Below are positions 24,374 to 46,988 of a DNA stretch of 64,000 bases, one piece after another. Within the stretch, counting starts at the first letter, position 1; each line of letters opens with the position of its first letter. A program made the translations under genes and the position numbers. A model generated the notes under the pieces. That model ran no database searches, was not told the DNA's origin, and saw only the letters and a program-made list of their open reading frames with translations. This DNA is from Clostridia bacterium. GTDB taxonomy: Bacteria > Bacillota > Clostridia > Acetivibrionales > DSM-27016. Location of the stretch: the NCBI GenBank assembly GCA_026414765.1, contig JAOAIJ010000041.1, positions 1-64,000 of the forward strand, written 5' to 3'.

Positions 24374-24444
24374 CGGTATACTTTTATTGTATACTATGTT
24401 AAAATGTCTAATGGTGACGGAGCTCACCTTCAAATGCGTAGATA

Positions 24445-24486
24445 CTGATGGCTCCTACTTTGAACAGTCAAAGTAGGAGCCATCAG
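24445..24486. promoter_or_regulatory. Perfect 19-base stem-loop upstream of the Fe-S scaffold gene
   Basis: Bases 24445-24463 and 24468-24486 are exact reverse complements with a four-base ACAG loop. It is followed by TTTAAC, not by a proper T-run, and lies about 70 bases before the scaffold-like gene. It could be a second terminator, an mRNA 5' stabilising stem or an attenuator. Confidence 0.6.
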
Positions 24487-24554
24487 TTTAACAAAGTGCT
24501 AACTAAAATCTTATTTTAGTGAATAAAAAATTATTATGGAAAGGGGTACTAAAA

Positions 24555-25247
24555 ATGAACTATTCACATGAGGTTGAACAAATGATTTGCGTCAAAAAAG
24601 GTCCAAATCATGGGCCAGCCCCAATTCCTGAAGAAGGAAAATGGGTAAAAGCAAAAGAGGTAAAAGACATATCCGGCTTATCACATGGTATAGGCTGGTG
24701 TGCACCACAGCAGGGATGCTGTAAGCTCACACTAAATGTTAAAGAAGGTATAATTGAGGAGGCTCTTGTTGAGACTCTGGGATGCTCCGGTATGACTCAC
24801 TCAGCTGCAATGGCTGCAGAAATTCTCAGTGGAAAAACTATCCTTGAAGCATTGAATACTGACCTTGTTTGTGATGCAATAAACGTTGCAATGAGAGAAA
24901 TATTCAAGCAACTTGCATATGGAAGAACACAGTCAGCTTTCTCAGAAGGTGGACTCCCTATAGGTGCAGGACTTGAAGACCTGGGTAAAGGCTTGCGTTC
25001 ACAGGTCGGAACAATGTTCGGAACTAAGGCGAAGGGTGTAAGATACTTGGAAATGGCTGAAGGTTACATATTGAATATCGGACTTGATGCAGATAATGAA
25101 GTAATCGGTTATAAGTTCGTACACCTCGGAAAAATGATGGATGCCATTAAAAAAGGTGTTGATCCTAAGGAAGCTTATGAAAAGAACATTGGTACTTACG
25201 GAAGATTTGCTGAAGCAGTAAAAGTTATTGATCCAAGACATGAATAA
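24555..25247 (+). CDS. Iron-sulfur scaffold-like partner of GGGtGRT protein
   Basis: A 230-residue cytosolic protein. Residues about 45-150 resemble the IscU/NifU-like fold: GWCAPQQGCCKLTLNVKEG, then ETLGCSGMTHSAAMAAEILSGKT and a later CDAIN. These conserved cysteines could hold a metal or cluster. It is known in clostridia and related anaerobes as the partner encoded directly before GGGtGRT proteins, and that gene follows here after 21 bases. The ATG at 24555 follows AAAGGGG; an upstream in-frame TTG or ATG at 24519 lacks a site. The precise biochemical function of the pair is not established. Confidence 0.85.
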   Translation: MNYSHEVEQMICVKKGPNHGPAPIPEEGKWVKAKEVKDISGLSHGIGWCAPQQGCCKLTLNVKEGIIEEALVETLGCSGMTHSAAMAAEILSGKTILEALNTDLVCDAINVAMREIFKQLAYGRTQSAFSEGGLPIGAGLEDLGKGLRSQVGTMFGTKAKGVRYLEMAEGYILNIGLDADNEVIGYKFVHLGKMMDAIKKGVDPKEAYEKNIGTYGRFAEAVKVIDPRHE

Positions 25248-25268
25248 TTTAGAAGAGAGGTGATTAAA

Positions 25269-26267
25269 GTGGTTAGATTTGAAGGATATGAAAGAAGAAT
25301 AGATAAAATAAATGCTTGTATGGCTGAATACGGATTTAAAAGTCTTGAAGAAGTAAAGGATTTCTGTACTTCAAAGGGTATAGATGTTGATAAAATAGTA
25401 AGAGACGTGCAGCCTATCGCTTTCGAAAATGCTGTATGGGCTTACACTCTGGGTTGTGGTGTTGCGTTAAAGAAGGGTGTTAAGAATGCAGCTGAAGCGG
25501 CTGAAGCTATAGGTATAGGATTGCAGGCTTTCTGTATTCCTGGTTCCGTTGCTGACTCCAGAAAAGTAGGTATCGGACATGGTAATCTCGGTGCAATGTT
25601 GTTAAAAGAAGAAACAAAATGTTTTTGCTTCCTTGCAGGACATGAATCTTTTGCTGCTGCAGAAGGTGCTATAGGCATAGCAAGAACAGCAAACAAAGTA
25701 AGAAAAGAGCCACTTCAGGTTATCCTAAATGGTCTCGGAAAAGATGCGGCATATATAATTTCAAGAATCAACGGTTTTACATATATAGAAACTGATTATG
25801 ATTTTGCTACAGGCGAACTTAAAGTGGTTAATACCAAAGCTTACTCAAATGGGGAAAAAGCTAAGGTTAGAGTTTATGGGGCAAATGATGTTCTTGAAGG
25901 TGTTGCAATAATGATTAAGGAAAGTGTTGACGTTTCAATTACCGGTAACTCAACCAATCCAACAAGATTCCAGCACTTAGTTGCAGGAACATATAAGAAG
26001 TGGGCCGGTGAGAACGGTAAAAGATACTTCTCGGTTGCTTCCGGCGGCGGTACCGGCAGAACGCTTCATCCGGACAACATGGCTGCAGGACCAGCTTCCT
26101 ACGGTTTGACCGACTCTATGGGCAGAATGCACGGAGATGCTCAGTTTGCAGGTTCATCTTCAGTTCCTGCACACGTTGAAATGATGGGTCTTATCGGTAT
26201 GGGCAATAACCCAATGGTTGGTGCAACAGTTGCAGTTGCAGTTGCGATTGAGGAATCAATAAAGTAA
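25269..26267 (+). CDS. GGGtGRT family protein
   Basis: A 332-residue protein containing the name-giving motif: SGGGTGRTLHPDNMAAGP near residues 258-275. Other conserved stretches are CIPGSVADSRKVGIGHGNLG and CFCFLAGHESFAAAEGAIG. Start: the GTG at 25269 is eight bases from AGAGAGG; the GTG at 25260 overlaps that site. The family is widespread in anaerobic Firmicutes and always follows the scaffold-like gene found immediately upstream. Function is unknown; a link to Fe-S or redox metabolism is an inference from the partner. The gene ends in a strong terminator. Confidence 0.9.
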   Translation: MVRFEGYERRIDKINACMAEYGFKSLEEVKDFCTSKGIDVDKIVRDVQPIAFENAVWAYTLGCGVALKKGVKNAAEAAEAIGIGLQAFCIPGSVADSRKVGIGHGNLGAMLLKEETKCFCFLAGHESFAAAEGAIGIARTANKVRKEPLQVILNGLGKDAAYIISRINGFTYIETDYDFATGELKVVNTKAYSNGEKAKVRVYGANDVLEGVAIMIKESVDVSITGNSTNPTRFQHLVAGTYKKWAGENGKRYFSVASGGGTGRTLHPDNMAAGPASYGLTDSMGRMHGDAQFAGSSSVPAHVEMMGLIGMGNNPMVGATVAVAVAIEESIK

Positions 26268-26571: not shown

Positions 26572-26653
26572 TGCGCTGAATAGATCTTTGAGAAACTGCT
26601 TTATATATTACAAATAGTATCGTTACTGCTAAAAAAAGATGGAGGCTGATATT

Positions 26654-27124
26654 ATGAATAAAACATTGGAAATATTGTCACCAGAGCTTTTTATGTTGGC
26701 TATAGTTATTATTATGATTCTGTTTGGTGCCTTTGGAGGTTGTATCAATTACCTGATAGCCAGACAGAAAGCAATTAGAGGAGATGGCAAGACTGACAGT
26801 GTGAGCTTGCTGTACAGTGTTATACTGGGAATTGGCGCTTCTTTTCTTGTACCTCTTTTTTTATCCCTGCTTTCTAGCGATATTATTGATAGATTAGAAG
26901 GCGGACATACCGACTTTTTTATTTTTGGAAGCCTATGCCTTATCGCCGGAATCTCATCTGACAGTTTCATACAGGTTGTATCTAGAAATATGATAAAAAA
27001 ATTATCTAAGGCTGTCAATACAGATGGGAAGGCCTTGGAAAACAGTGTTGTACAGTCTACTCAAAATGTGTTTACTGCAGCGGAGAATGCAGGACAGACA
27101 GAGAAAGGATCAGTTCCCGGATAA
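26654..27124 (+). CDS. YEATS-associated three-TM helix protein
   Basis: A 156-residue protein with three hydrophobic segments: residues about 12-35 (FMLAIVIIMILFGAFGGC), 55-78 (LGIGASFLVPLFLSLL) and 92-108. A helical SDSFIQVVSRNMIKKL tail follows. This pattern matches the small three-TM proteins found next to YEATS-like domain proteins in bacteria; I recognise it from the general pattern, not with certainty. Start: GGAGG eight bases before the ATG at 26654. The C39-like peptidase gene follows after 30 bases, so the two are an operon. Such proteins are thought to act in membrane-linked signalling or conflict systems. Confidence 0.6.
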   Translation: MNKTLEILSPELFMLAIVIIMILFGAFGGCINYLIARQKAIRGDGKTDSVSLLYSVILGIGASFLVPLFLSLLSSDIIDRLEGGHTDFFIFGSLCLIAGISSDSFIQVVSRNMIKKLSKAVNTDGKALENSVVQSTQNVFTAAENAGQTEKGSVPG

Positions 27125-27154
27125 TTTGGTGATATTTAATTGGAGGTGCAATCA

Positions 27155-27649
27155 ATGAAACCAACATACTATAGTCAATATGATGAGCCATACGCAAGTT
27201 ATCCGTATCCATCAGCAAATCACCCCCAGGCTAATATTAAAAGTTCAGGCTGTGGTGTAACTTGCTTTGCAATGGTACAAGCTACCTTGCAAAATCCCAA
27301 ATACACGCCTATAGATGGTGCAAAGGACGCCATTTCTATGAATGACCGTGGTTTAGAGGGTACAGAGGACGAGTTTTTTCAACATGCGGCAGCTAAGTAT
27401 AAATTACAATTCAGCCAGACAAGTGACCTGAATACGGTTTTAGATTCGCTTAAAAATGGTAAACTTGTTGTATGCCGCATGAAAGATTGGTTTAGACCAG
27501 GAGCCGGACACTTTATATTGTCTTGGGGAGTAAATAATGGGAAAATCCAAATTAATGATCCTGCCAGCCGTGAAAACTCGCAGAAACTATGGGACACAAC
27601 GATATTTACACAAAAATGTATTAGGTATTTTATATATGGCAAGCTCTGA
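27155..27649 (+). CDS. Small C39-like cysteine peptidase
   Basis: A 164-residue papain-fold protein of the C39-like (Peptidase_C39_2) group. SSGCGVTCFAMV carries the catalytic cysteine (C33), GAGHFILSWG the histidine (H119) and INDPASR the Asp region (about 138). There is no signal peptide and no ABC domain, so it would be a free cytosolic protease. The ATG at 27155 is eight bases behind GGAGG. It is encoded 475 bases upstream of the radical SAM/Nif11 peptide locus on the same strand. Double-glycine leader peptides are normally cut by C39 enzymes, so it is a candidate leader peptidase; that link is inference. Confidence 0.8.
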   Translation: MKPTYYSQYDEPYASYPYPSANHPQANIKSSGCGVTCFAMVQATLQNPKYTPIDGAKDAISMNDRGLEGTEDEFFQHAAAKYKLQFSQTSDLNTVLDSLKNGKLVVCRMKDWFRPGAGHFILSWGVNNGKIQINDPASRENSQKLWDTTIFTQKCIRYFIYGKL

Positions 27650-27853: not shown

Positions 27854-28123
27854 TGCTTCCAGAGCACATTACAAAACCGCTGTTATCTCTCTTTTAAAAA
27901 ACTCCCTTCCATAAATCCTTTGGATTCGCTTTTAACGTTTTAAATATCTATTCCCGAATACTGATTAATAGATCATCAAATTATTTGTAGAAGTCTGATC
28001 CTTAGTCCGGACTTATGCTGCATTTAACTTGTGAATTAATTGGCATCCACATAAATGTGATGGCATATATTAGTAGGGAATATGGCGATGACGAAAGAAA
28101 TTTGGATGGCAGTGGAGGTATGC

Positions 28124-29914
28124 ATGAATTATGGCGAGACAGTTCCCGTAGAGAGAAAACCTTATGTTTTGCTTTTTTTCATACAAAGAATCCTTTTCAA
28201 AAATTCCTTTGAATATATAGATCCTCTTGGTTTGATGGCTTTAGCCGCATTTATAGGGGAAAAGGGATATAATCCAGGGGTTTTTTCTGGTACGGTAACA
28301 GAAGCAGCTGCGGTGTTGGAAAGAGAGATAAAAAAAAGGACTGTCTCTGCAGTAGGACTGTACTGTGATTTTGAAAACCAATCGGTAGTAGAGAGTTTCA
28401 GCAGCTATGTAAAAGAACACTGGGGTATACCTGTCATTGTAGGCGGACCCCAGGCAGTGGCGCTAAGCAAGGAATTTATCACTTCATCAGGATGTTTCGC
28501 TGTTGCTCGTGGTGAAGGTGAATATACATTATGGGAGTTGTTGGAATATATAGTACACAACAAAGGCAGTATTGAAGGCATAGCCGGCATTACATACATT
28601 AATGAAAAAGGCGATTTGAAATCAAACCCGGACAGAAGCTTAATTACGGATTTGGACGCACTGCCGTTTCAAAATCCGTCCCATTCTCTTACCCAACGAA
28701 AAAATAACTTCTCTTTATTGACCGGTCGCGGTTGTCCGTTTCATTGCGCTTTCTGCTACGAAGGTGGAAACACAAAAACTGTACGTCTGCGCAGTGTTCA
28801 AAATGTAACAGCTGAAATAATCCGATTATTTGACCAAAATCCATACGCAAGATATGTATGGTTTTCCGACGACACATTTACTCTCAATACGTCTCGTGTT
28901 CTGGAGTTTTGTACAGAATTGACCCGTTTACGCGAAAAAAAGGATTTTGTATGGTTTTGCGAGGGTCATCCCAGCACATTGGTCAAAGAACCCGGGGTAA
29001 TAAGGCAAATGGTTGATGCGGGACTTGTCCGTATGCAGATAGGAATAGAGTCAGGTTCCAGGCATGTAATAGAGCAATACCGCAAGCAAACTACACTTGA
29101 GCAAATTGAGGAAGTAATCCTATTGTGCCGGGAAGCGGATTTGCCCCAGCTTTGCGGCAACATAATTATCGGGGGAGCTGGAGAAACCCTGGAGACAATA
29201 GAAGAGACTTGGGCATATATCGACAAGCTGCTAAGCTTAGCGCCAGGCATGCTGGACATATCCCTGACCTTGTTCATGCCTTTTCCCGGTACGGCTATGA
29301 CGCGCTGCCCCAGAAAGTTTGGAATGGACATTGTAGACCCGGACGCTTTGACATCAATAGGAGATTATCCTGTAGCTTCTACTGAAAAAATGGAATTGGG
29401 CGAAATAGCTTCGGCACGGAGAATGTTTACACACAGGATGCTGGAACGTATGAGTGAACTGGTAGATAGGGGTTTGGTTCCGCATAGGGATATAATACGG
29501 CACTACCGGTTGAATGCTGACTATGGGATTTCCAGTATATGGCATAGAGCTATTTATTCTCAAAAACATTTTCTCCACAGGCGGTATATGCTTTTGGCAG
29601 GAAGTTCCGCGAAAAGGATGGAGGACATTGATTCCAGCCAAATTGACAACTATCGTCCGGTACGTGTTTTTACTTTATGGAACGGTATTTCTTGGAGGGG
29701 AGATATACCTGAAATACTTGGATATGTATTGTCACCCCTTGAATATGAACTGATACTTCTTTGCAGCGGAAAACTTAAGTTATGGCAAGTGGTGGATGAA
29801 ATCTGCCGGAAGTTTTCCGGAAGGTATGAAAACTCAAAGGAGGCAAGGGAGATAATTATGAAAATCCTTAAGGAATTTGAAGGACGGAACTGGCTGGTAT
29901 TTGTACCCTACTAA
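28124..29914 (+). CDS. B12-binding radical SAM protein 1 (RiPP maturase-like)
   Basis: A protein of about 596 residues with three parts. Residues about 15-150 form a cobalamin-binding Rossmann-like domain; VIVGGPQAV is the B12-contacting turn, and no DxHxxG motif is present. Residues about 190-420 are the radical SAM barrel: GRGCPFHCAFC gives the [4Fe-4S] ligands C204, C208 and C211, followed by DDTFTL, CEGHPS and IGIESGS. The last about 70 residues (SPLEYELILLCSGKLKL onward) resemble a PqqD-like winged helix. B12 radical SAM enzymes typically methylate unactivated carbons or rearrange substrates. I chose the ATG at 28124 because GGAGG lies five bases upstream. First of three plus-strand paralogues leading to a Nif11 peptide gene. 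Confidence 0.88.
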   Translation: MNYGETVPVERKPYVLLFFIQRILFKNSFEYIDPLGLMALAAFIGEKGYNPGVFSGTVTEAAAVLEREIKKRTVSAVGLYCDFENQSVVESFSSYVKEHWGIPVIVGGPQAVALSKEFITSSGCFAVARGEGEYTLWELLEYIVHNKGSIEGIAGITYINEKGDLKSNPDRSLITDLDALPFQNPSHSLTQRKNNFSLLTGRGCPFHCAFCYEGGNTKTVRLRSVQNVTAEIIRLFDQNPYARYVWFSDDTFTLNTSRVLEFCTELTRLREKKDFVWFCEGHPSTLVKEPGVIRQMVDAGLVRMQIGIESGSRHVIEQYRKQTTLEQIEEVILLCREADLPQLCGNIIIGGAGETLETIEETWAYIDKLLSLAPGMLDISLTLFMPFPGTAMTRCPRKFGMDIVDPDALTSIGDYPVASTEKMELGEIASARRMFTHRMLERMSELVDRGLVPHRDIIRHYRLNADYGISSIWHRAIYSQKHFLHRRYMLLAGSSAKRMEDIDSSQIDNYRPVRVFTLWNGISWRGDIPEILGYVLSPLEYELILLCSGKLKLWQVVDEICRKFSGRYENSKEAREIIMKILKEFEGRNWLVFVPY

Positions 29915-29954
29915 TCACACCTGACGGATTGGTCGGGCAAAAAGGAGAGTAAGT

Positions 29955-31715
29955 ATGGAAGGCAGGGTCTTGCTATTTAATATACACAGGATAACAAGCG
30001 ATATATTGAATCTAGAAGTGGAATCGCCTGGACTGCTGGCACTGGCTGCTTTTTTGGAGACCAAAGGGTATGATGCCCTTGTTTACCAGGGGGAGCCGTC
30101 CTTGGCAAGGGATTTTCTTGGGAGACAGAGCAAGGAAAATATAATATTGGCTGTAGGCTTTTATTGCGATTTTGAAAACCGGACTGAGGTTTCGGAGATG
30201 AGCCGGTTCATTGCCAGCAATTACGGTTTGCCGGTAATTTTTGGGGGTCCTCAGGTAAGTGGTATGGATGCTGAATATATAAGCAATTCAAAATGCACCG
30301 CTGCTATAGCCGGAGAAGGTGAAATTACACTGTGGCGCTTTCTGGACTGCCTCTGTGAGCAAGGGGGCGACTGGCGGGAGCTGGGCGGTGTAGTTTATGT
30401 GGACGAAAGTGGGACTCTCATACAAAAGCCTTGTGGGAATATAGTTCAAAACCTTGACGAGCTGCCTTTGCCGGCACTTCACAGGTGGGTAAACAGGCCT
30501 GTACGCAGGAAGGCTCATGTACTGACAGGCCGAGGATGCCCTTTTAATTGTGCTTTCTGCCATGAAGGCAGCCTTTCGAGAAGTGTACGGCTGCGAAGCG
30601 TGGAACATGTACTGCATGAGGTGGAAACAATACTGGATAATGAACCTTACATAAATTATATTGTTTTTGCGGACGATACGTTTACATTATCACCTGAGCG
30701 TGTGAAGAAGCTATGCGAAGGGCTTGTACGTTTGAGACAAAAAAGGGACTTCATCTGGTACTGTGAGGGGCATATAAAGCTCCTGGACAAATGGCCTGAA
30801 ATGCTTGCAGATATGGTAGAAGCCGGGATGGTCAGGCTGCAGATGGGAATTGAATCCGGAGTGCAGAGTGTTCTGGACAAATATAACAAAGGAACCACGG
30901 TACCGCAAATAGAAAATGTAATCAAGGCTGCAGTTGATGCAGGGGTACATCAAATCGTAGGATTTTTTATAACAGGAGGTCCCTTCGAAAGCCGTGAGAC
31001 CATAGAAAGGAACAAAGCCTTTTATGAAAGGCTTATTGAGCTTGCGCCGGGCATAATTGAATTAGGCCCCAGCCCGTTGATGCCATACCCTGATACTGAT
31101 ATTGCACGTTGTCCCGGAAAGTATGGCATACGCATTCTTGATCCAAAAGGAAATACTACTTTCTCCGACTATCCTGTGACTGAGACAGAGGCTATGACAA
31201 GAGAGGAAATCGCAAAGGCGCAAAAAGAATTGATAGCCCATGGTGTGGGTGTAATGATGCGGCTGTTTAGGCAAGGCAAAGTGCCACATGAAAGGGTGCT
31301 GAACTGTTTCCGTTTTCACTCCTATGGAGCTGTGTCTGTATGGTATACTGCAATTTACAGCCAGGTTCCTTTTGTACACGGCTATTATACACTGCTGGCC
31401 CGTGGGGCGGTAAGCCGGTCTGATGAAATCCCTGAAAACCGGATTGAAGAGTGGCGTCCACAAAGGACTATGGAGATATGGCATGATGTTGATTTTTCGC
31501 AGGGATTCCCCAGAATAGGAAGGGATGTACTCTCGCCGCTGGAGTTTGAGTTGTTGTTGTACAGTACAGGGAAGCTGTGCCTTTGCCAGGTATTGGACAT
31601 TGTATATGATAAATTCTCCGGCAGGATTGAAACCCGTAGGGAGTTTGATGATATGGCAAGGCGGATATTGAGGTCTTTTGAAAAAAAATACTGGTTGGTC
31701 TATGCACCATTGTAG
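29955..31715 (+). CDS. B12-binding radical SAM protein 2 (RiPP maturase-like)
   Basis: A 586-residue paralogue of the preceding protein. The B12 domain turn is VIFGGPQVSG. The cluster motif is GRGCPFNCAFCHE with C195, C199 and C202; the residue after the last Cys is His where most relatives have Tyr. DDTFTLSPERVK, YCEGHIK and MGIESGV follow. The C-terminal segment SPLEFELLLYSTGKLCL has the same PqqD-like pattern. Preceded by AAAGGAGAG and only 40 bases behind protein 1, so it is in the same operon. It shares the WRPQR linker seen in all paralogues. The target residue on the peptide cannot be told from sequence. Confidence 0.88.
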   Translation: MEGRVLLFNIHRITSDILNLEVESPGLLALAAFLETKGYDALVYQGEPSLARDFLGRQSKENIILAVGFYCDFENRTEVSEMSRFIASNYGLPVIFGGPQVSGMDAEYISNSKCTAAIAGEGEITLWRFLDCLCEQGGDWRELGGVVYVDESGTLIQKPCGNIVQNLDELPLPALHRWVNRPVRRKAHVLTGRGCPFNCAFCHEGSLSRSVRLRSVEHVLHEVETILDNEPYINYIVFADDTFTLSPERVKKLCEGLVRLRQKRDFIWYCEGHIKLLDKWPEMLADMVEAGMVRLQMGIESGVQSVLDKYNKGTTVPQIENVIKAAVDAGVHQIVGFFITGGPFESRETIERNKAFYERLIELAPGIIELGPSPLMPYPDTDIARCPGKYGIRILDPKGNTTFSDYPVTETEAMTREEIAKAQKELIAHGVGVMMRLFRQGKVPHERVLNCFRFHSYGAVSVWYTAIYSQVPFVHGYYTLLARGAVSRSDEIPENRIEEWRPQRTMEIWHDVDFSQGFPRIGRDVLSPLEFELLLYSTGKLCLCQVLDIVYDKFSGRIETRREFDDMARRILRSFEKKYWLVYAPL

Positions 31716-31767
31716 ACATTCTTATGGATGCATGATAAAGCAATATCAGGGGGATTAATTCAATATT

Positions 31768-33528
31768 ATGAAATCTGTTTTACTTTTTAATGTGAAGCGC
31801 GCCATGGCTGGACCATCCAATGATTGTTCCGACTACATGGGAGCCTTCTATCTTGCTGCAGTACTTGAAGAAAGAGGGTATGACCCATGGGTATTCCACG
31901 GGTATGCTCACGAGGTACCGGAGATACTGGCAAGGGAAGTATCGTACCGGAATATTGCAGTTATAGGTTTTGCATGTGATTTTGAGAACCGTTCGGTAGT
32001 GGAGGAATTAAGCCTTTTTGTCAAAGAAAAGTACCGGATTCCTGTAGTTGTGGGAGGCCCTCAGGCTATGGACCTAAAAGAGGACTTTTTTAGAAAGTCA
32101 CGGTGTGACTATGTTGTAAGGGGGGAGGGTGAACATACCCTGCCACAGCTTATAGGCTTCATTGTAAAGCATGAGGGCAGCCGTGAAGATATTAAAGGGA
32201 TTACATGGCTGGATGATTCGGCGGGTATTGTCTCAAACGCTGACAATGAACCTGTTTCTGACCTGGATACATTGCCCCTGCCGGCATACCACCGTTCTCT
32301 CCACACCGGCAGGACTTACGGGCGGAGTATATTTACCGGACGTGGATGTCCTTTTTCCTGCGCGTTCTGTTATGAGAGCAACCATAAAAAGAGGGTCCGA
32401 CTGAGAAGTATGGATAAGGTGATGGAGGAAATAAAACATAACCTTGATACTTATCCGGAACTAAATTATATCATTGTTTCGGATGATACGTTTACTTTGA
32501 GTACTGAAAGGGTTCAAGCATTTTGCAAGGGCATAAAAATACTACGCAGCGGAAGGGATTTTGTATGGTATTGCGAAGGCCATGTACATTTACTTGCCAA
32601 ATGGCCCGGGATGATGCGGCTGATGGCAGAGTCGGGGCTTGCCCGTTTACAGATAGGCGTTGAAACAGGCTGCCAGAATGTGTTGGATTTATACAGAAAG
32701 CAGGTAACGCTTGATGAAATTGAGTTTGTTATAGAAGAAGCAGTAAAAGTTGGGGTCCCGCAAATTGCAACCAATCTGATTATCGGCGGCCCTGCGGAAT
32801 GCGAAAAGACAATTGGAGAAACAGAGGCTTTTGCAGAGAGGCTTTTGAGGAAAGCTCCCGGAGTGATTGATATACTTACAGGATTTCTGCGGCCCTATCC
32901 CGGTACAGCAATAGCTGAAAATCCAGAGGCTTTCAAGCTTGCCATATCAGACCCTCAGGGAGCCAAATCCTTTGACGACTATCCGCTGATTGAAGCAAAC
33001 GGCATGACTTTGGAGGATATCTTAAAATACCGCGTCCGCATCAGCAGGCATATTTTCCGTGTTATGAATGAAATTACGGACAAAGGGCTGGTTCCTTACA
33101 AAACCATCCTGTCCCAGTATAAAAGTGCTATGAAATACGGTATCACCAGTATGTGGTATACGGAAATCTTCAAAAAAAATCATTTCCTGGATGAGTACTT
33201 CAGGATGATTGCAAAAGGTGCAGCGGTACGGTTTGAGGATGTGCCGCAGGATGAATTGATGAGGTGGAGGCCTCAGCGTACAGTTGAAATACGTAGAGCT
33301 GTAAACTTTGAGCAGGGGTTTCCGAAAATCGGGGGGTATGTCCTGTCACCGCTGGAATTTGAGCTGCTTCTAAGGTGCTCTGCAAAACTGCGCTTCGAAG
33401 AAGTTCTTGAGGATATGTACAGCACTTTCGGAGAACGGTATGAAGGAATGGAGGCTTTTAAAGGCAGTGTTATTGAGACTTTCCGTAAGTTTGATAAGAT
33501 GTACTGGCTTGTATTTTGCAAAGTATAG
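31768..33528 (+). CDS. B12-binding radical SAM protein 3 (RiPP maturase-like)
   Basis: A 586-residue paralogue. VVVGGPQAMD marks the cobalamin domain. GRGCPFSCAFCYE gives cluster cysteines C194, C198 and C201. SDDTFTLSTERV, YCEGHVH and IGVETGC are the following barrel motifs. The N-terminus is shorter and begins SVLLFNVKRAM. The C-terminal SPLEFELLLRCSAKLRFEE keeps the PqqD-like pattern. The site AGGGGGA lies 13 bases from the ATG, somewhat long, so expression may be weaker. It ends 46 bases before the Nif11 peptide gene, making this gene set and the peptide one probable operon. Confidence 0.88.
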   Translation: MKSVLLFNVKRAMAGPSNDCSDYMGAFYLAAVLEERGYDPWVFHGYAHEVPEILAREVSYRNIAVIGFACDFENRSVVEELSLFVKEKYRIPVVVGGPQAMDLKEDFFRKSRCDYVVRGEGEHTLPQLIGFIVKHEGSREDIKGITWLDDSAGIVSNADNEPVSDLDTLPLPAYHRSLHTGRTYGRSIFTGRGCPFSCAFCYESNHKKRVRLRSMDKVMEEIKHNLDTYPELNYIIVSDDTFTLSTERVQAFCKGIKILRSGRDFVWYCEGHVHLLAKWPGMMRLMAESGLARLQIGVETGCQNVLDLYRKQVTLDEIEFVIEEAVKVGVPQIATNLIIGGPAECEKTIGETEAFAERLLRKAPGVIDILTGFLRPYPGTAIAENPEAFKLAISDPQGAKSFDDYPLIEANGMTLEDILKYRVRISRHIFRVMNEITDKGLVPYKTILSQYKSAMKYGITSMWYTEIFKKNHFLDEYFRMIAKGAAVRFEDVPQDELMRWRPQRTVEIRRAVNFEQGFPKIGGYVLSPLEFELLLRCSAKLRFEEVLEDMYSTFGERYEGMEAFKGSVIETFRKFDKMYWLVFCKV

Positions 33529-33574
33529 AATATGACTTTATGAGCTTTACTGTATGTGAAAGGAGGTGAAAAAA

Positions 33575-33886
33575 GTGTCAATTAATAATGCGAAAGCCCT
33601 TATTCAAAAATTACGTTCTGATAAATCATTAGCGAAAGCTTTTGCAAACGCAAAGACTACTGAGGAATTTCTTAATCTTGCGGCAAAACACGGTTATGAT
33701 ATTACCTTGGATGAATTTACAGAGGCTTTAGACGAGCTTAAAGATGTCATATGCGAGTCTATAGATGATCTGAAAGATGCTCTGGAGGAGTCAAATGATG
33801 ACGGTAAACAGATTGACCAGGCAGTCGGGTTGACAATAGTGGGTGTGGACTATGCTTTTGTAGCAGTGCAGACTTCCTCGACTTGA
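33575..33886 (+). CDS. Nif11-type RiPP precursor peptide
   Basis: A 103-residue peptide, start GTG at 33575, eight bases behind AGGAGG; a GTG at 33566 overlaps that site. Residues 1-55 match the Nif11 leader: AKALIQKLRSDKSLAKAF, TTEEFLNLAAKHGYDITLDEF, and a following acidic helix. The leader continues as ESIDDLKDALEESNDDGKQ. The C-terminal part AVGLTIVGVDYAFVAVQTSST is hydrophobic and beta-branched, and would be the modified core. The usual Gly-Gly cleavage site is not seen; a cut near DDG or AVG is possible. Seven radical SAM paralogues flank it on both sides, so it is very likely their common substrate. A terminator follows. Confidence 0.85.
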   Translation: MSINNAKALIQKLRSDKSLAKAFANAKTTEEFLNLAAKHGYDITLDEFTEALDELKDVICESIDDLKDALEESNDDGKQIDQAVGLTIVGVDYAFVAVQTSST

Positions 33887-33903
33887 TACCCAGTTTCTAA
33901 AGC

Positions 33904-33936
33904 GATGCCTGTCCGTATATTTATACGGCAGGCGTC
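33904..33936. terminator. Bidirectional terminator between precursor and reverse radical SAM genes
   Basis: A hairpin with arms GATGCCTG-T-CCGTATA and TATACGG-C-AGGCGTC (one bulge, one G-T), followed by TCTTTATG. It lies in the 68-base gap where the two converging transcripts meet, so it can end both. Confidence 0.8.
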
Positions 33937-33954
33937 ATCTTTATGCATATACAG

Positions 33955-35718
33955 TCAAGGGGGCATAAACAGCACCCAATGGCGTTCCTGGAAAGTTTTA
34001 AGAATACCCTCTAAGCTATTGCAAAGTTGATCTCCTGATAATCCATCTGGATGCCTTTGCTCCATGAGGAGCTGGATACTGTTCAGATTTATTTTTCCGC
34101 TGCATAGTAAAAGCAGTTCGTACTCAATGGGTGAAAGAGTTGCTTCATACAAAGCAGGTCGTCCATTAGACCAGCCAGCCTTATCCTCTATATCGAAAAC
34201 CCTGCATGGATACCAGTTTTTCAGCTCTGACGGGAGGATTTCTTCCAGCCTTTTTGCCGGTGTAGTGATAAGCATTGTATAGTAGCGCCTTATTGCAGTA
34301 TCTTTTGTATACAGGTATTTATACCATGTGCTGGATACCCCATAACGCAGTGCAAGCTCAAAATGCTTCTTAAGCCTGCCATGGGGAATCTTGTTGGATT
34401 TTAGCAGATATTTCATCGTATCAGAAAGCATTTTTACAAACTTATACCTTTCGTGGCACAGTTCTTCCCTTGAAAATACAAGGGTTTCTGTTACAGGAAA
34501 ATCCTCCAGCGAAGTGAGTGAACTGCGGTCCAGTATGTTCAGGCCAAAATCATGTGGGTAATTGGATATGGCTGTGTTCGGAAGGGGAATAACAAAAGTA
34601 GTGGAGATATCCAGCAATCCCGGTGTTGCAATGAGAAGCTTTTCAATGTAGGTTGATGTAAACTCAAGAGTTTCTTTTGTTTCATGTACTCCTCCTATGA
34701 TGAAATTACCGGCCAGCTGGGGCAAGTCGCATTCCCAGCATAGGTGCACCACCTCTTCAATCTGTTCCACTGTCGTCTGCTTGCCGTACATATCCAGAGC
34801 AGACTGCCATCCGGCCTCCATACCGATTTGCATTCTTACCATTCCTGCATCCTTCATCATGGAAACAAGCTGCGGCCATCTGGACAATATACTCGCATGT
34901 CCTTCACAGAACCATACAAAGTCCCTGGAACTCCGGAGGTCTGACATGACTTCACAGAACAAGGCGATCCTGTCATAGCTTATGGTAAAAGTGTCATCTA
35001 CAAACCAGATATATTTTATTTCAGGGTTTTCATCCAATCCGCGGATTATTTCCTCTTTTACTGATTCCACGCTTCTAAGGCGTAGCTTTTTTGTATTTCC
35101 GCCCTCGAAACAGAATGTACATCGAAAAGGGCAGCCGCGCGCAGAGGCTACAGACAGGTTATATTTATGAGGACGGCGCAGAAGGTGTTGGGAACTGGGA
35201 GCTGGGAGTGCAACCAGGTCATCTATGGGAGGACGTTCGGGAGTAGACACCTCCAGTCCGGCTTCATCAAGGTATACGATACCCTTTATATTTGCAGGGG
35301 TTCCTCTACCCCAGGCCATCCAGTCTAAGAGCTCGCGAATGACATATTCTCCGTCTCCTCGAATAAGAAAGTCACATCTTGCAGCTTTTAAAAACTCTTC
35401 ACCTACATGAAGAGCTTGGGGTCCTCCTACTAATACTCTCACCCCATATTTTTCTTTAAGTATAAGGCTCATAGAAACAACAGCACTCTGATTGTCATAA
35501 TCGCAGTAAAGCCCTACTGCAAAAATCGGGTATTTCCGGGATTCCTCTTCAAATACCTTTACTGCATCGGTGGTTATGCCTGTGAATACACGGGCCCGGT
35601 ACCCATTATCCTCCAGAAAAGCAGCAATGGACATAAGACCCAAATTATCGAGATATTCGAAGGTACGTTTATAGACCATTCTCTGGACATACATAAGTAG
35701 TATGGTTATGCGCTCCAT
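33955..35718 (-). CDS. B12-binding radical SAM protein 4 (RiPP maturase-like)
   Basis: A 587-residue paralogue. VLVGGPQALHV marks the cobalamin domain. ARGCPFRCTFCFEGG gives C196, C200 and C203; it differs from the others by ARG for GRG and by Thr and Phe inside the motif. DDTFTISYDRI, CEGHAS and IGMEAGW follow. SPIEYELLLLCSGKINL begins the PqqD-like end. It is transcribed toward the precursor from the other side and is the last of four minus-strand genes. Protein 1 and protein 7 are its closest relatives by eye (shared GGNTK, EYLDNLGL-like N-terminus). Confidence 0.88.
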   Translation of the reverse strand: MERITILLMYVQRMVYKRTFEYLDNLGLMSIAAFLEDNGYRARVFTGITTDAVKVFEEESRKYPIFAVGLYCDYDNQSAVVSMSLILKEKYGVRVLVGGPQALHVGEEFLKAARCDFLIRGDGEYVIRELLDWMAWGRGTPANIKGIVYLDEAGLEVSTPERPPIDDLVALPAPSSQHLLRRPHKYNLSVASARGCPFRCTFCFEGGNTKKLRLRSVESVKEEIIRGLDENPEIKYIWFVDDTFTISYDRIALFCEVMSDLRSSRDFVWFCEGHASILSRWPQLVSMMKDAGMVRMQIGMEAGWQSALDMYGKQTTVEQIEEVVHLCWECDLPQLAGNFIIGGVHETKETLEFTSTYIEKLLIATPGLLDISTTFVIPLPNTAISNYPHDFGLNILDRSSLTSLEDFPVTETLVFSREELCHERYKFVKMLSDTMKYLLKSNKIPHGRLKKHFELALRYGVSSTWYKYLYTKDTAIRRYYTMLITTPAKRLEEILPSELKNWYPCRVFDIEDKAGWSNGRPALYEATLSPIEYELLLLCSGKINLNSIQLLMEQRHPDGLSGDQLCNSLEGILKTFQERHWVLFMPP

Positions 35719-35779
35719 TTCAGCCAGCCCCCTCTCTCACCGCCCTAAAGGAAATAAACAACTGCCGCTTCACTGACAT

Positions 35780-37540
35780 TCAAAAACGGGCATACGCCAG
35801 CCATCGTTTTTCTTCAAACCCTTCAAGCAGCTTCAGAACTGTACCATCAAAGGCATCCCTGCTTTCAAACCTGCTTCCGAAGCCTGCGTATAATCTGTCC
35901 AGTATTTCTCCCAGCCTGAGTTTGCCACTGCATAAAAGAAGTAACTCGTATTCCAAAGGAGAAAATACATAGTCATTGATTTGTGGAAATCCACTGTCAA
36001 GTGATAGGGTATTCCAAATTTCAAATACTCTTTGGGGATGCCATGAATACAGCTCGTGTTTGGCTATGTCCTGTGAACGGCATACTGCATTACGAGCCAT
36101 TAACTGATAATAGCGGTTGTAAATCGGATGCTTGATAAATACATTGATAAACCACCGGGAATAGACCCCGTACCTATAGGCTAGGCGATAGTTTCCAATG
36201 ATTACATCATGGGGTATTTTCCCCCCGGTATACATTTTCATCATTGTATTATAGAGGTGTTTGTTAAGCCTATGCCTGGCGTTAAACAGTTCCATCCAGG
36301 TAAATGCCTCCGTTTCGGTCAGAGGAATATCCTCGAGACCTTGGGTTTCACGTTCTGACAGCAGACGTAAGCCGAAATCCTGAGGTCTTTTCGTAATGGC
36401 TGTGTTGGGATAAGGCATGAGGAAGAAACCCAGGGATTCAAACCTGCCTGGCGCCAGCTCCATAAGTCTTGTAACCAGATTTGCCCCGGCTTCAAGGGTT
36501 TCCGGGCTTTCAAGCGGGCCGCCCACAATTATATTGCCAGTTATTTGAGGTATCCCGGCTTTTACACTTTCACGTACCACAAATTCCATCATTTCTGCTG
36601 TGGTTTGCTTTTTATACAGAGAAAGCACCTCGTCAGAACCTGACTCAATGCCAAGAAACAGCTTCACGAGACCTGCATCTGCCATTTGTTTCAGCATCTC
36701 GGGCCATTTGTACAAGGTTTGGACATGGCCTTCGCAAAACCATACGAAATCCTTCTTTTGTCTCAGTCGTTTAAGCCCTGTGCAGAATTGCTCCACACGC
36801 TTTGGGTCCAGAGTGAATGTATCATCAATAAAAAATATATACTTGCAATTCGGGTGTCGTCCAAAATGGCAGGTAATTTCGTCAAGAACATTCTGTACGC
36901 TTCGGAAACGGACTCTCCTGGTATTGTTTCCTTCATAGCAGAATGCGCAGTGATAGGGGCAGCCACGTCCAGTCATGACAGGAAGGATAGACCAGGATTC
37001 ATGTCCTTTTTCCAACCTGAAGTCAGGCCACGGCAGGCTGTCAAGATCTTCAATTGGCTTTCTGTCGGGACGGCAGACCATCTCTCCACTTTCGTCAAGG
37101 TATGATATGCCGTCTAGCTCTGCCCGGCTTTTTTCACCCTTTATATAGAGATCCAGCAGTTCAAGGAGCGGGAATTCGCCATCTCCACGGATAATTGCAT
37201 CACAACCCGACTTCTCCAGAAAACTCTGGTTCAGTCCAACGGCCTGGGGACCACCTACAAAAACGGGTATACCCCATTTTTCCTTGATGTACCTGGATAT
37301 CTCTGTAACCAGCGTGCTGTTTTCATAATCACAATAAAACCCTACGGTCAGTGCACCATCTTCAGCCATTTTCCTTTCGATCCATTCCATGGCTTCATGG
37401 GCGAATCCCCGGAACAGTGCCGCACTATAGCCTTTTTCCTTCAGGAAAACAGTAAGGAGATTTTGGCCGATGCTGATATCTTCCGGTACAGAGCCCCAAT
37501 TTTCCCGGTGGGTATTTATAAGTAAAATATCGTATGTCAT
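35780..37540 (-). CDS. B12-binding radical SAM protein 5 (RiPP maturase-like)
   Basis: A 586-residue paralogue. VFVGGPQAVGL marks the B12 domain. GRGCPYHCAFCYEGN gives C194, C198 and C201. DDTFTLDPKRVEQ, FCEGHVQ and LGIESGS follow, with GGPLESPETLE in the outer barrel. The C-terminal SPLEYELLLLCSGKLRLGE has the PqqD-like pattern. It lies 49 bases downstream of the degenerate paralogue and 61 bases upstream of protein 4, all in one apparent operon. The N-terminal sequence TYDILLINTHRENW begins directly with the first beta-strand of the B12 domain. Confidence 0.88.
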   Translation of the reverse strand: MTYDILLINTHRENWGSVPEDISIGQNLLTVFLKEKGYSAALFRGFAHEAMEWIERKMAEDGALTVGFYCDYENSTLVTEISRYIKEKWGIPVFVGGPQAVGLNQSFLEKSGCDAIIRGDGEFPLLELLDLYIKGEKSRAELDGISYLDESGEMVCRPDRKPIEDLDSLPWPDFRLEKGHESWSILPVMTGRGCPYHCAFCYEGNNTRRVRFRSVQNVLDEITCHFGRHPNCKYIFFIDDTFTLDPKRVEQFCTGLKRLRQKKDFVWFCEGHVQTLYKWPEMLKQMADAGLVKLFLGIESGSDEVLSLYKKQTTAEMMEFVVRESVKAGIPQITGNIIVGGPLESPETLEAGANLVTRLMELAPGRFESLGFFLMPYPNTAITKRPQDFGLRLLSERETQGLEDIPLTETEAFTWMELFNARHRLNKHLYNTMMKMYTGGKIPHDVIIGNYRLAYRYGVYSRWFINVFIKHPIYNRYYQLMARNAVCRSQDIAKHELYSWHPQRVFEIWNTLSLDSGFPQINDYVFSPLEYELLLLCSGKLRLGEILDRLYAGFGSRFESRDAFDGTVLKLLEGFEEKRWLAYARF

Positions 37541-37589
37541 ATAAAATTACCCCACATATATAAGTTTAAAGTAAACATGTAAATACAGC

Positions 37590-38705
37590 TTATATAGCTG
37601 TATATGCCAGCCAATACCTGTCTTCAAATGACCTGAGTATTGACATGGCAGTCGTGTAAAACTCCCCATATCCTTCAAATCTGCTGCCAAAGCGCGAAAA
37701 GATTACATCCAGCACCTGTTGAAGGGTTAATTTGCCTGTAGAATGCAAAAACAGTTCGTATTCAAGAGGGGAAAGAACCTGACTACCGATACGGGGATAG
37801 CCCTTTTCATAATCTACAGAAGCCCACATATCTATTGTGCGCTGAGGTCTCCATGTTTCCAATTCATCCGGTGCTATATCAATTGAGCGTCTGGCAGCAC
37901 CACGCGATAAAAGGTTGAAATAGTTGAACAGCACCTTATACTTCTTAAATATTGTGCTATGCCATAAGGAATCTATTCCATAGTTTTCATATAGTGTGAA
38001 ATGAGAAAGTATTTTTTTGTGAGGGATTTTGCGTTTGGCTTCCAGACTGCACATACAGGAGATAATCTGAGAGTAGTATTTTTGCTGCACTATAATAGGC
38101 CAATCTTTTCTGATGTCTTTTAATTTCCAGGGAGTACTTTCATAGTTCTCCAGCAGGATCACACTGTCTGAAGACAAGTTATCTTCTGTAGAAAATGGTA
38201 AATCAGAAGCACTGTAAATGCGAAGAAGCGGGCTAGGCCCGGGTTCGAAGCTTCCAGGTGATGCAGTAATCAACCCTCTTACACGTTCTAGCACACTTTC
38301 AATATTTTCAATACTCTGTGGTAACCAATCTAATACCATATGACCCACAACCTGTGGTATGACACCTTTGGAACAGAGGACGGAAGCGTATGTAAAATCA
38401 TTATTATCTGACTGCGTGTTAATTTCCAGTTCGATTCGCACAAGGCCGCAGTCTGCAAGTTCTTCAGCCAATTCAGGTATGTCCGCTAAAACGAAAGGTT
38501 TACACCGGCATCCCCATACAAAATCCCGTGTGTTTTTCAAATCTGCCATTCCTCGGCTGATTTGTGAAGCCTTCACAGCATCGCGGGCAAAGTCGTCGCC
38601 TGTTAGGCGTATAAACTTCAAATCCGGAAATTCCTTTAGTCTTTTCTCTACTTCATCTAAAATAACTTGGACATTCTTTTCTTTGACGAATACGTTGTTT
38701 TCCAT
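37590..38705 (-). CDS. Degenerate radical SAM paralogue (pseudoenzyme)
   Basis: A 371-residue relative that begins where the others have already passed the cluster motif. The B12 domain and CxxxCxxC are absent. DDTFT has become DDFAR, FVWFCEGH has become FVWGCRCK, and IESG has become INTQ. The frame is intact over the remaining barrel half, the WRPQR linker and the C-terminal SPLEYELFLHSTGKLTLQQ segment. The start ATG at 38705 follows GGGGG and lies 17 bases from the stop of protein 7. It cannot bind the cluster by the usual route, so a partner, scaffold or peptide-binding role is likely. Decay in progress is the alternative, but no stop or frameshift is visible. Confidence 0.8.
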   Translation of the reverse strand: MENNVFVKEKNVQVILDEVEKRLKEFPDLKFIRLTGDDFARDAVKASQISRGMADLKNTRDFVWGCRCKPFVLADIPELAEELADCGLVRIELEINTQSDNNDFTYASVLCSKGVIPQVVGHMVLDWLPQSIENIESVLERVRGLITASPGSFEPGPSPLLRIYSASDLPFSTEDNLSSDSVILLENYESTPWKLKDIRKDWPIIVQQKYYSQIISCMCSLEAKRKIPHKKILSHFTLYENYGIDSLWHSTIFKKYKVLFNYFNLLSRGAARRSIDIAPDELETWRPQRTIDMWASVDYEKGYPRIGSQVLSPLEYELFLHSTGKLTLQQVLDVIFSRFGSRFEGYGEFYTTAMSILRSFEDRYWLAYTAI

Positions 38706-38722
38706 CACAACCCCCATAAAGC

Positions 38723-40540
38723 CTAATATTCTGTGTACCCTAGCCAACGACGACCTTCGAACCGGCTCATAATTCCCAGTACAGCAGTACAGAAGTCTTC
38801 GTAACAGGAAAAATCGTTTTTAAAATTGGAATATAAGCACATACAGATTTTGTTCAGTGTTGTTGTTCCCGTACACGACAGAATAAGTTCAAATTCAAGC
38901 CATGATAATTTCTGTCTGGCTATTATAGGATTGCCGCTATCAAAATCACAGTATTCCCATAATCTGAAAGTACGAATGGGACAATGATTCCATATTTCAC
39001 TGCCGGGTATTAGTTTAGAATTCACAATAGAGCCCTGTTCCATTAATGTATAGTAGTTTTTTAGAATATTGTCCGGAGAGTAGACCATTTTGTACCAATT
39101 GCTCTCAATCCCATATTTATGTTTCAGGCGGAAATCCTCCAATATACGGGCTTCAGAGATATGCCCTTCTTCCTGGAGGTTTAGCATTTTAGTAAGGATG
39201 TGGTTTGTGAATTCCATCCTCATGGAGGTTATTTCCTCACGGGAGAGATCTCTGGTTTCAGCAACTGCAATATCACCCGATGAGGTAAGGGAGTCTATAT
39301 CTATAATGTTTAAGCCAAAGGCGGATGGATTGCACGTTAGGGCCGTATTAGGCAAAGGGAGGAAAAATGTAGAGGTAATATCCACCATGCCTGGTCCTAT
39401 ATCAAGAAGCCTTGCTACAAATTTTTTTGTTTCATCAAAGGTCTGCCGGGTTTCCAGAGCGCCGCCGATGATAATGTTCCCTGCTAGCTGTGGCAAGCCC
39501 TTTTTCCAGCATTGCTGGACTACATCTTCTATTTGCTCTAATGTGGCTTGCTTTCTGTATAGTTCAATAACACGGGGAGATCCGGATTCTATTCCTATCT
39601 GCATTCTGACAAGACCTGATTCTAGCATTGCAGATAGCATGTCGGGCCATCTTATGAAAGTACTTGGGTGGCACTCACAAAACCAGACGAAATCGTATTC
39701 CCTTCGTAAATTTGCAAATTCTCTGCTAAAGGCTTCAATACGCTTAGGGTCGAGGGTGAAGGTGTCATCTGCAAACCATATGTACCTAATACCAGGGTTA
39801 TGTTCCAGGGCGCAGCGGAGCTCGCTAATTACATTGTCCACACTCCGCAGGCGTACTTTTCCAGGGACGCTTCCTTCATAGCAGAAAGCGCAGTTGAAGG
39901 GGCAGCCGCGCCCGGTCAGCAGAGTAAAACTTTTTCTGTTTTTATAAGAGGTCCAATCCTTTCCTGGTTTTCTGAAAGGTAATCCATCAAGGTCATTTAT
40001 AGGGGGGCGTGGCTTTAAACTGATAAGGTGATTGTCCTTATCAAGATAGGAGACTCCAGCAATGGTTTCAAGGGAACCGCAGCCATGAAGAAAGAACTCC
40101 AGTAACTCATAAACCGGATATTCTCCTTCTCCACGTATTAGTACATCACAACAGGAGTTTTTTAGAAAACTGTCTCCCAGGGCTACTGCCTGCGGGCCTC
40201 CTATAAACACTTTTGTGCCCCATTTGTTTTTTACTGTCCGGCAGAAGCTTTCAACTACCGAGCAGTTTTCATAATCACAATAAAGCCCAACAACATCCAG
40301 GCCATATTCAGATATTTCCTGATCAACAACAGAGAGAGCTATGTGAGCTGGGCCTGAAAAAACTTTGGCATTATACCCTTTGTCTTCTACAAAAGCAGCA
40401 AGTGCCTTTAATCCCAGTGGTTCTGTAAGTTGATAGAGATTACCTGTACCAAGACGCTGCATATATATAAACATGATCTTACCTCTTATGCTGTCTTCAG
40501 GCTTACTCCCGTCTAAGCTTTTAGATATTCCTTCAACCAA
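38723..40540 (-). CDS. B12-binding radical SAM protein 7 (RiPP maturase-like)
   Basis: A paralogue of 605 residues from the TTG at 40540, which has AGAGGAG eight bases upstream. An ATG at 40474, also with AGAGG, would give 583 residues and align better with the others. VFIGGPQAVAL marks the B12 domain. GRGCPFNCAFCYEGS gives C213, C217 and C220 in the longer numbering. DDTFTLDPKRIEA, CECHPS (Cys for the usual Gly of CEGH) and IGIESGS follow. The C-terminal SWLEFELILSCTGTTTLNK is the most divergent of the PqqD-like ends. First gene of the minus-strand operon. Confidence 0.87.
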   Translation of the reverse strand: MVEGISKSLDGSKPEDSIRGKIMFIYMQRLGTGNLYQLTEPLGLKALAAFVEDKGYNAKVFSGPAHIALSVVDQEISEYGLDVVGLYCDYENCSVVESFCRTVKNKWGTKVFIGGPQAVALGDSFLKNSCCDVLIRGEGEYPVYELLEFFLHGCGSLETIAGVSYLDKDNHLISLKPRPPINDLDGLPFRKPGKDWTSYKNRKSFTLLTGRGCPFNCAFCYEGSVPGKVRLRSVDNVISELRCALEHNPGIRYIWFADDTFTLDPKRIEAFSREFANLRREYDFVWFCECHPSTFIRWPDMLSAMLESGLVRMQIGIESGSPRVIELYRKQATLEQIEDVVQQCWKKGLPQLAGNIIIGGALETRQTFDETKKFVARLLDIGPGMVDITSTFFLPLPNTALTCNPSAFGLNIIDIDSLTSSGDIAVAETRDLSREEITSMRMEFTNHILTKMLNLQEEGHISEARILEDFRLKHKYGIESNWYKMVYSPDNILKNYYTLMEQGSIVNSKLIPGSEIWNHCPIRTFRLWEYCDFDSGNPIIARQKLSWLEFELILSCTGTTTLNKICMCLYSNFKNDFSCYEDFCTAVLGIMSRFEGRRWLGYTEY

Positions 40541-46124: not shown

Positions 46125-46416
46125 TGTAACAAATAGTGGGATTTTACTTACGGGGATTATTATCACTAGCAACTAAAATAAGACAATATTCCTTTATTCC
46201 AGATACAAATTATGCAGATGGATATCAGTTCTATTAACAATGAATTAAAAGTGTACAACCTAAAGTGATTCAAATTACAAAATAATTTATCTTGTTTGAT
46301 GCGGGGGCGCTCAAATTAAGGAAATTATTATTATAGTAAACCAAAATCAGAAATATCAATTTAAGCAGATATATTTCTATTAAGTAATTATGCCTTTTTG
46401 TAGAAAGGGGATTCAT

Positions 46417-46923: not shown

Positions 46924-46988
46924 TTCTTAAATTATTTCAGGCTTTTACAGCCGAGTGGTTATAAAATAATTTGTTTTGAATAATTTTA

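Follow-up and report, generated by a model that had tools for sequence, protein, structure and literature searches.

Six B12-binding radical SAM enzymes and one Nif11-leader peptide: a predicted ribosomal peptide pathway found in distant bacterial phyla

Why would a bacterium keep seven related radical S-adenosylmethionine (SAM) genes around one gene for a small peptide? The question is raised by a contig of a Clostridia bacterium (JAOAIJ010000041.1, assembly GCA_026414765.1, positions 1 to 64,000; the whole of this stretch is called the window), in which eight genes (28082-40540) form two convergent operons. The plus-strand operon carries enzymes A, B, and C and then the peptide gene, while the minus-strand operon carries F, G, E, and D. 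A sequence-only reading of the window had described three plus-strand and four minus-strand paralogues converging on one Nif11-type peptide, a layout that our analysis upholds; its start for the block (28124) differs from that of the longest open reading frame (ORF) of enzyme A (28082) by the choice of start codon. Our proposal is that these genes probably make a conserved natural product of ribosomal origin, with the six enzymes A to F each modifying their own residue(s) of the peptide core, most likely by C-methylation, and with G as a partner of F. The features are listed below (L and P numbers denote related loci and proteins from our searches).

28082-29914, plus strand: enzyme A, B12-binding and radical SAM domains, CPFHCAFC, 610 amino acids (aa); PF04055 79.9 bits, PF02310 30.0 bits; orthogroup A with L030, L041, L038, L045, and L031
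29955-31715, plus strand: enzyme B, B12-binding and radical SAM domains, 586 aa; PF04055 82.8 bits, PF02310 26.9 bits; orthogroup B
31768-33528, plus strand: enzyme C, B12-binding and radical SAM domains, 586 aa, adjoining the peptide gene; AlphaFold model with a mean confidence score (pLDDT) of 90.5
33575-33886, plus strand: precursor peptide with a Nif11 leader, 103 aa; PF07862 50.8 bits, TIGR03798 43.9 bits; ribosome-binding site
33821-33883, plus strand: AV and core region of the precursor, GLTIVGVDYAFVAVQTSST; near-invariant in 27 distinct precursors; AVG in place of the usual GG cleavage motif
33904-33936, no strand: strong inverted repeat between the convergent operons (RNA fold)
33955-35718, minus strand: enzyme D, B12-binding and radical SAM domains, 587 aa; PF04055 62.4 bits, PF02310 32.8 bits; orthogroup D
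35780-37540, minus strand: enzyme E, B12-binding and radical SAM domains, 586 aa; PF04055 73.4 bits, PF02310 30.0 bits; orthogroup E
37590-38747, minus strand: G, putative pseudo-enzyme, a half barrel without CxxxCxxC and without a B12 domain, with a conserved C-terminal domain; model pLDDT 83; homologue P0002 also motif-less
37593-37910, minus strand: C-terminal domain of G (residues 280-385), predicted to be winged-helix-like; a counterpart also ends A to F (residues 485-586 in C)
38723-40540, minus strand: enzyme F, B12-binding and radical SAM domains, 605 aa, its own C-terminal domain diverged; PF04055 80.0 bits, PF02310 44.5 bits; orthogroup F; C-terminus on a long branch

The peptide was indeed, as first described, a 103-residue product with a Nif11-like leader. 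Translated from a GTG at 33575 behind AGGAGG (a longer ORF begins at 33566), it scores above the cut-offs of both PF07862 (23.8 bits) and TIGR03798 (32.3 bits) and is the only Nif11 match in the genome at E ≤ 0.001. The GG-type cleavage site, which is usual but not obligatory, is replaced by AVG in the window; GG occurs in 25 of the 27 distinct precursors, and P0006 has AAG. These 27 comprise P0006 and the distinct precursors kept from 30 small ORFs matched by the leader profile. Their core (LS-IVGVDYAF---Q) is near-invariant, and 25 of them fit L[ST][ILM]VG[VI]DY[AVT]F; the two exceptions (ITLVGIDYPF and TSMIGFDYPF) are extra copies in L040 and L036, both of which also have a normal copy. The presence of DY in all 27 reflects our own selection, because the alignment excluded two L037 matches that lack a DY close to the end. 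Among eight representatives, the majority residue reaches a mean of 0.89 over 17 core columns versus 0.60 over 65 leader columns (0 of 100,000 permutations as extreme), and leader identity to that of the window is 27 to 43% (ten loci). The window core shares 10 to 13 of 14 residues with nine other loci, with 3 to 9 codons synonymously different; since the residues are kept despite such codon changes, it is selection on the peptide that maintains the core.

Two Acetobacterium-type loci (L040:11708-12922 and L036:5961-6675) have three or two precursors, one of them with a variant core (ITLVGIDYPFVMTPIVP or TSMIGFDYPFVMTPIVP), and these variants constitute a natural test of enzyme site choice. 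Separately, Nif11 peptides with Gly/Ala-rich tails and an unrelated core lie near a Synergistaceae cluster (L037:46-426 and 18602-19120).

Is this arrangement peculiar to one genome? One scan of the GTDB collection of 84,980 species with two short peptide patterns gave 35 loci, and the counts are lower bounds. They comprise 16 complete five-module sets, six five-module parts cut by contig ends (L032, L033, L049, L051, L053, and L058), and four convergent layouts (L030, L031, L041, and L044). L038, which comes from the genome of L044, likely holds the rest of that cluster; L045 is a broken A gene, close to where its contig ends; and the remaining seven (L054, L056, and L059-L063) are copies that occur singly and are either distant or truncated. 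The sequence-only reading held that its link of enzymes to peptide would fail if paralogues occurred elsewhere without a Nif11 peptide. At 23 of the 24 loci with at least three modules (whole or cut), the peptide gene is within the enzyme block or immediately next to it, and at the remaining one (L038) the contig ends inside C, which strongly supports the link. Counted by genome, Nif11 is matched in 23 of 31 (the genome of L041 is not among the 31); the eight without one hold either single copies that are 28 to 34% identical (L054 and L059-L063) or fragments at contig ends (L056 and L058). The layout, which was to be sought in other genomes, recurs collinearly in Wallbacteria and UBP16 and, lacking F and G, in one genome of Acidobacteria, while the five-module version is found in Acetobacterium, Sporomusa, other Clostridia, and Synergistaceae.

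The enzymes fall into orthogroups, and their order is collinear. The window order is A-B-C-peptide-D-E-G-F; L030 and L041 have A-B-C-peptide-D-E'-E-(F fused to a G-like part), L031 has A-B-C-peptide-D-E-E, and the five-module sets, in which a double enzyme of ~1200 aa takes part, read double-C-peptide-E-D (Acetobacterium and Sporomusa) or peptide-E-D-double-C (Synergistaceae). In a tree of 76 of the 136 module rows (Shimodaira-Hasegawa-like likelihood ratio [SH-aLRT] support only; further trees used 58 chosen rows each), each window enzyme groups with the same-position gene of L030, L041, and L044/L038, and of L031 except for F and G. Groups C, D, and E also hold the five-module sets, as does B at a support of 86, where the second half of the Firmicutes/Synergistaceae double enzyme joins it; the first half is about equally near A and F. 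Long branches (G, P0002, L054, L057, and L031) make some placements unsure. Two explanations were rejected: local gene amplification, in that the copies fall in orthogroups common to distant phyla, and a chance neighbourhood of peptide and enzymes, given the peptide at nearly every multi-module locus. Judged from these sequence comparisons, the cluster represents a conserved multi-phylum pathway for a ribosomally synthesized and posttranslationally modified peptide (RiPP).

Other relatives were noted in passing. In L057, from Clostridiales (RUG340), the five-module set has diverged, the core is the same, and two ATP-binding cassette (ABC) transporters are present. The single distant homologues of L059-L063 are open frames of 615 to 848 aa from UBP9 and other bacteria, and in a Megasphaera metagenome-assembled genome (L054:1697-8208) a solitary family member is accompanied by a SPASM radical SAM gene and by two genes for dynamin-like GTPases.

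What kind of enzymes are these? All six of A to F match PF04055 (62 to 83 bits) and PF02310 (27 to 46 bits; at a cut-off of 32.1 bits, C, D, and F lie above and A, B, and E below, at 26.9 to 30.0 bits), carry CPxxCxFC, and are 35 to 45% identical to the reference rows. The two marks of class B (B12) radical SAM enzymes (i.e., CxxxCxxC and a B12-binding domain) are thus found in six of the seven copies, just as the sequence-only reading had claimed; its "seven paralogues" holds for related copies, of which only six look catalytic (as it had also said), G being motif-less. Other proteins of the genome are far from the family (next best, 126.6 bits versus 468 to 948). The AlphaFold model of enzyme C shows the full B12 radical SAM fold; the closest solved folds are CysS (residues 1-477) and MgmA (3-439), at 17 to 20% identity, and ~100 C-terminal residues lie outside both alignments. 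In the comparison with RiPP families that had been advised, the RiPP models are matched far under their cut-offs, with 75.7 to 129.0 bits for ApyD (NF050148; cut-off, 750; the 129 bits belong to enzyme C, for which this is the best NCBIfam match) and 43.0 to 73.0 bits for the RiPP C-methyltransferase rSAM_ocin_1 (TIGR03975; cut-off, 281.85). The family scores and the modelled fold agree with class B methyltransferases, but enzymes that do not methylate match the fold equally well; C-methylation at different residues, as the sequence-only reading proposed, is thus a prediction.

The motif-less copy, G, has no Pfam or NCBIfam match at E ≤ 0.001 (at a loose threshold, a radical SAM trace of 15.1 bits, under the cut-off) and neither mark of class B enzymes. 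It aligns to family positions 211-586 only; of the barrel, just the second half is retained, together with the C-terminal domain. When 5.8 billion proteins were searched by words with G as the query, only P0002 (37%), P0003 (28%), and P0004 (28%) were returned besides G. A further protein search scored the 7,995 best candidates and covers 120 of its 131 matches. Elsewhere, G-like sequence is found in F itself. A second C-terminal domain lies in an extra part behind F in L030, L041, L044, P0031, P0032, P0033, P0036, and P0083, the G-like domain being fused behind F in Wallbacteria; for these eight, P0058, and P0003, the best match of the extra part is G or P0002 in 10 of 10 cases (compared with window A to G and P0002). 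In P0058 it also spans the half barrel of G (36% over 362 columns, 218 bits; B, 168). P0003, P0058, and P0103 of Heliobacterium undosum lack the native C-terminus of F and finish in a sequence closest to G (49 to 54% identity, compared with 43 to 50% to B and 33 to 36% to F).

Could G be a decaying pseudogene, left from the duplication that founded the family and without a role? It has lost its N-terminal half and motifs, 59 further genomes from its family, order, or class gave no match to it, and it starts in a weak context directly after the F stop (an ATG-started form, 371 aa, begins at 38705). Against this stand P0002, a second motif-less homologue with an open frame of 583 aa, whose longest contig (49,940) is the same size as those of P0009 (best match C, 62%) and P0113 (best match F, 59%), which suggests that the three belong to one cluster, and the ratio of nonsynonymous to synonymous substitution (dN/dS) of the fused G-like domain (0.18 to 0.26), which is similar to that of F's own C-terminus (0.15 to 0.22). 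We regard the pseudogene explanation as improbable. Because a G-like domain is fused to F or replaces its C-terminus elsewhere and, where fused, is under purifying selection (dN/dS of about 0.2), G appears not to be simply decaying. The simplest reading is that F receives a functional substrate-binding domain from G, either in trans or by fusion, and G is predicted to be a non-catalytic substrate-binding partner of F.

The pathway that we propose would run as follows. Six B12 radical SAM enzymes, each of its own orthogroup, flank one Nif11-leader peptide with a near-invariant core; their C-terminal domains would bind the leader, each enzyme would modify its own residue(s), most likely by C-methylation, G would serve F as a non-catalytic binding partner, in trans or fused, and the leader would be removed after modification. 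Several results weigh against this proposal. The core differs little between sets of 5, 6, or 7 modules, contrary to what a strict rule of one enzyme per residue predicts; two Poy enzymes perform 17 methylations (PMC9505594), and therefore enzyme number need not equal site number. With regard to G, its identity to P0002 is only 37%, and B is a close second for the fused parts (e.g., 132 versus 139 bits in L041). P0031, P0032, P0033, and P0036 are not independent, because they are near copies of proteins in L044, L041, L041, and L030. The C-terminal domain tree does not separate the fused rows from G and B, or these two from each other. Evolution is faster in the barrel relic (dN/dS of 0.20 and 0.39; a third pair with saturated dS has a pN/pS of 0.48). 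The C-terminal domain has no convincing sequence match in the PDB (best E, 0.1) and resembles PqqD only weakly (a single one of 20 members, with E 0.21). A Foldseek search with G gave no PDB match at E ≤ 0.001; the VIA rows are mostly radical SAM barrels, among which a missing PqqD carries no weight. For the enzymes, all NCBIfam scores are far under the cut-offs, and HpnJ (TIGR03471), the best model for A, B, D, E, and F, comes from outside RiPP biosynthesis. When solved folds were compared with enzyme C, the dehydratase AprD4 and the ring-contracting OxsB scored level with methyltransferases. Finally, the window genome has no C39 exporter match that would account for maturation there.

If the HpnJ name were taken as a guide, the enzymes would act on a non-peptide substrate such as a lipid, with the Nif11 peptide a mere neighbour, as the Nif11-less genomes of the distant single-copy relatives might also suggest. 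The HpnJ scores are 108.0 to 125.5 bits against an equivalog cut-off of 577.6, however, and the peptide, with its near-invariant core, is encoded in or beside the block at 23 of 24 multi-module loci and in three gene orders; we hold this explanation to be extremely improbable. A closer rival keeps the same RiPP pathway but has several enzymes perform cyclisation, C-C or C-S linkage, epimerisation, or oxidative changes, giving a cross-linked or rearranged product. B12 radical SAM enzymes that do not methylate are known (OxsB, AlsB, BchE, and ThnL; PMC13331322), the BchE model (TIGR02026) is among the better-scoring ones for several copies, the fold ties just mentioned point the same way, and Nif11 precursors are spliced at Xaa-Tyr by other radical SAM enzymes, whose B12 dependence is not stated in the available text (PMC11002830), the core here having an invariant Tyr. 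Both RiPP models matched, on the other hand, are C-methylating (ApyD by its product, PMC10635010; TIGR03975 by name), and we judge this rival unlikely. C-methylation remains our preferred proposal.

How would the product leave the cell, and what would it be? HlyD-type and C39-peptidase ABC transporter genes are annotated next to the cluster in L047, an HlyD-type gene in L052, and a C39-ABC gene in L057, and families related to these exporter genes adjoin further clusters. PF03412 was found in 12 of 13 genomes (the C39 search covered 13 of the 35 loci), and the exception is the genome of L053, whose precursor has GG. In Clostridia, cleavage at GG would fall to the C39-peptidase ABC exporter encoded nearby. 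The window organism would need another protease for leader removal, because its precursor has AVG and its genome lacks a C39 exporter match; this pairing is one case only. Next to the cluster (26639-27649), genes for a YLATT protein with three transmembrane segments and a C39-like cysteine peptidase (27140-27649) are present. The latter is a possible stand-alone maturation protease, which we do not claim it to be because none of its relatives turned up beside other clusters (neighbour census of loci other than L059-L063).

Exporters of this kind, together with the antiSMASH label given to an Acetobacterium cluster (PMC6925170), would be expected of an ordinary bacteriocin. No dedicated immunity gene was recognised among the annotated neighbours, and the window genome is without the exporter. 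Bacteriocin cores usually diversify, whereas the core here is near-invariant from Acidobacteria to Acetobacterium. We consider a bacteriocin somewhat unlikely; the near-invariant core would agree equally well with a conserved target or with a role as signal or cofactor. A wider form of our proposal, namely a nearly invariant modified peptide in at least four phyla, made by five to seven dedicated B12 radical enzymes with one orthologue for each modification, F borrowing the peptide-binding domain of a pseudo-radical-SAM subunit, and with a shared physiological role, is put forward tentatively as a possibility with the balance leaning the other way. If it were true, conservation would mean a common physiological role (signal, metallophore, or cofactor) and not chemical warfare.

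The surroundings of the operons add some context. The stem-loop between them (fold of 33880-33960, -29.4 kcal/mol; z, -5.64) is likely a transcription terminator common to both; the inverted repeat was not in the output of the consensus terminator scan, in which the number of promoter and terminator sites was no higher than in shuffles. The G+C content of the block is 44.2%, compared with 37.7% and 38.5% on the flanks, and since the family (query, G) is also absent from the 59 related genomes, the cluster may have been acquired horizontally. Farther away, a fluoride riboswitch (24404-24464; RF01734, 35.3 bits) lies just upstream of NifU_N-like and GGGtGRT genes (24519-26267). At 46390-54003, a NusG-like gene is followed by acyltransferase, FabD-insert/NMO, AMP-ligase, and short-chain reductase genes, presumably part of a trans-acyltransferase polyketide cluster with its own antiterminator.

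Six orthologously fixed radical SAM C-methyltransferases on a core of ~15 residues would, to our knowledge, be the densest such set, and a single peptide would then suffice to establish enzyme order and site choice. It would also be uncommon for the radical SAM fold to survive, without catalysis, in a protein retained for binding the substrate of a partner enzyme. Cultured acetogens have the pathway (Acetobacterium and Sporomusa malonica), and thus its product and function are directly testable.

How does the cluster compare with what has been described? That it is likely a new RiPP class, as the sequence-only reading proposed, is plausible, with the reservation that an Acetobacterium version was mentioned in 2019, in one sentence, as antiSMASH "bacteriocin" genes (PMC6925170). 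That cluster, which is reported to be homologous to one of A. woodii, has two radical SAM genes, two B12-binding radical SAM genes, HlyD, and one Nif11 peptide, i.e., the same enzyme family and peptide type as the window; the available text of that paper holds no analysis of core, orthology, or relatives. The Acetobacterium loci of our set (L035, L040, L043, L047, L050, and L064) have a double enzyme of ~1200 aa, three single enzymes, and the peptide, with HlyD and ABC neighbours annotated in L047, and differ from the window in having five modules in four proteins on one strand and no G. Beyond PMC6925170, no description of the cluster was found in the open-licence full texts searched, from which the string VGVDYAF is also absent. 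Nif11 precursors, mostly with B12 radical SAM enzymes, are treated in PMC11002830, PMC8120280, PMC9505594, PMC11583998, and PMC8868522, whose available text does not cover this cluster.

At the level of single enzymes, CysS and MgmA, the cobalamin-dependent radical enzymes with the closest folds to enzyme C, lack its C-terminal part of ~100 residues in the alignments. ApyD, the best NCBIfam match of enzyme C, makes beta-methyltyrosine in an aminopyruvatide RiPP (PMC10635010) and carries a fused recognition (RRE) domain (PMC11002830). The core in the window likewise has its invariant Tyr, but ApyD is a single B12 radical SAM enzyme, and its P450, MNIO, and methyltransferase partners were not seen in the window cluster.

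At the level of pathways, bottromycin and polytheonamide invite comparison. The bottromycin precursor is of the follower type, without a Nif11 leader, and its pathway is not known to include a pseudoenzyme, while the polytheonamide leader belongs to a family other than the Nif11 type found here. As proposed for the window, several bottromycin radical SAM C-methyltransferases (BotRMT1-3) modify their own residue(s) on one peptide, although there are three of them (PMC11285071). The two B12 radical SAM C-methyltransferases of polytheonamide, PoyB and PoyC, act on separate regions of one precursor, PoyC having the motif Cx7Cx2C in contrast to CxxxCxxC in the window enzymes (PMC11285071), and this pair accounts for 17 C-methylations (PMC9505594). 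These two RiPP pathways use two (polytheonamide) or three (bottromycin) radical SAM C-methyltransferases (PMC11285071), compared with the six B12 radical SAM enzymes of the cluster reported here.

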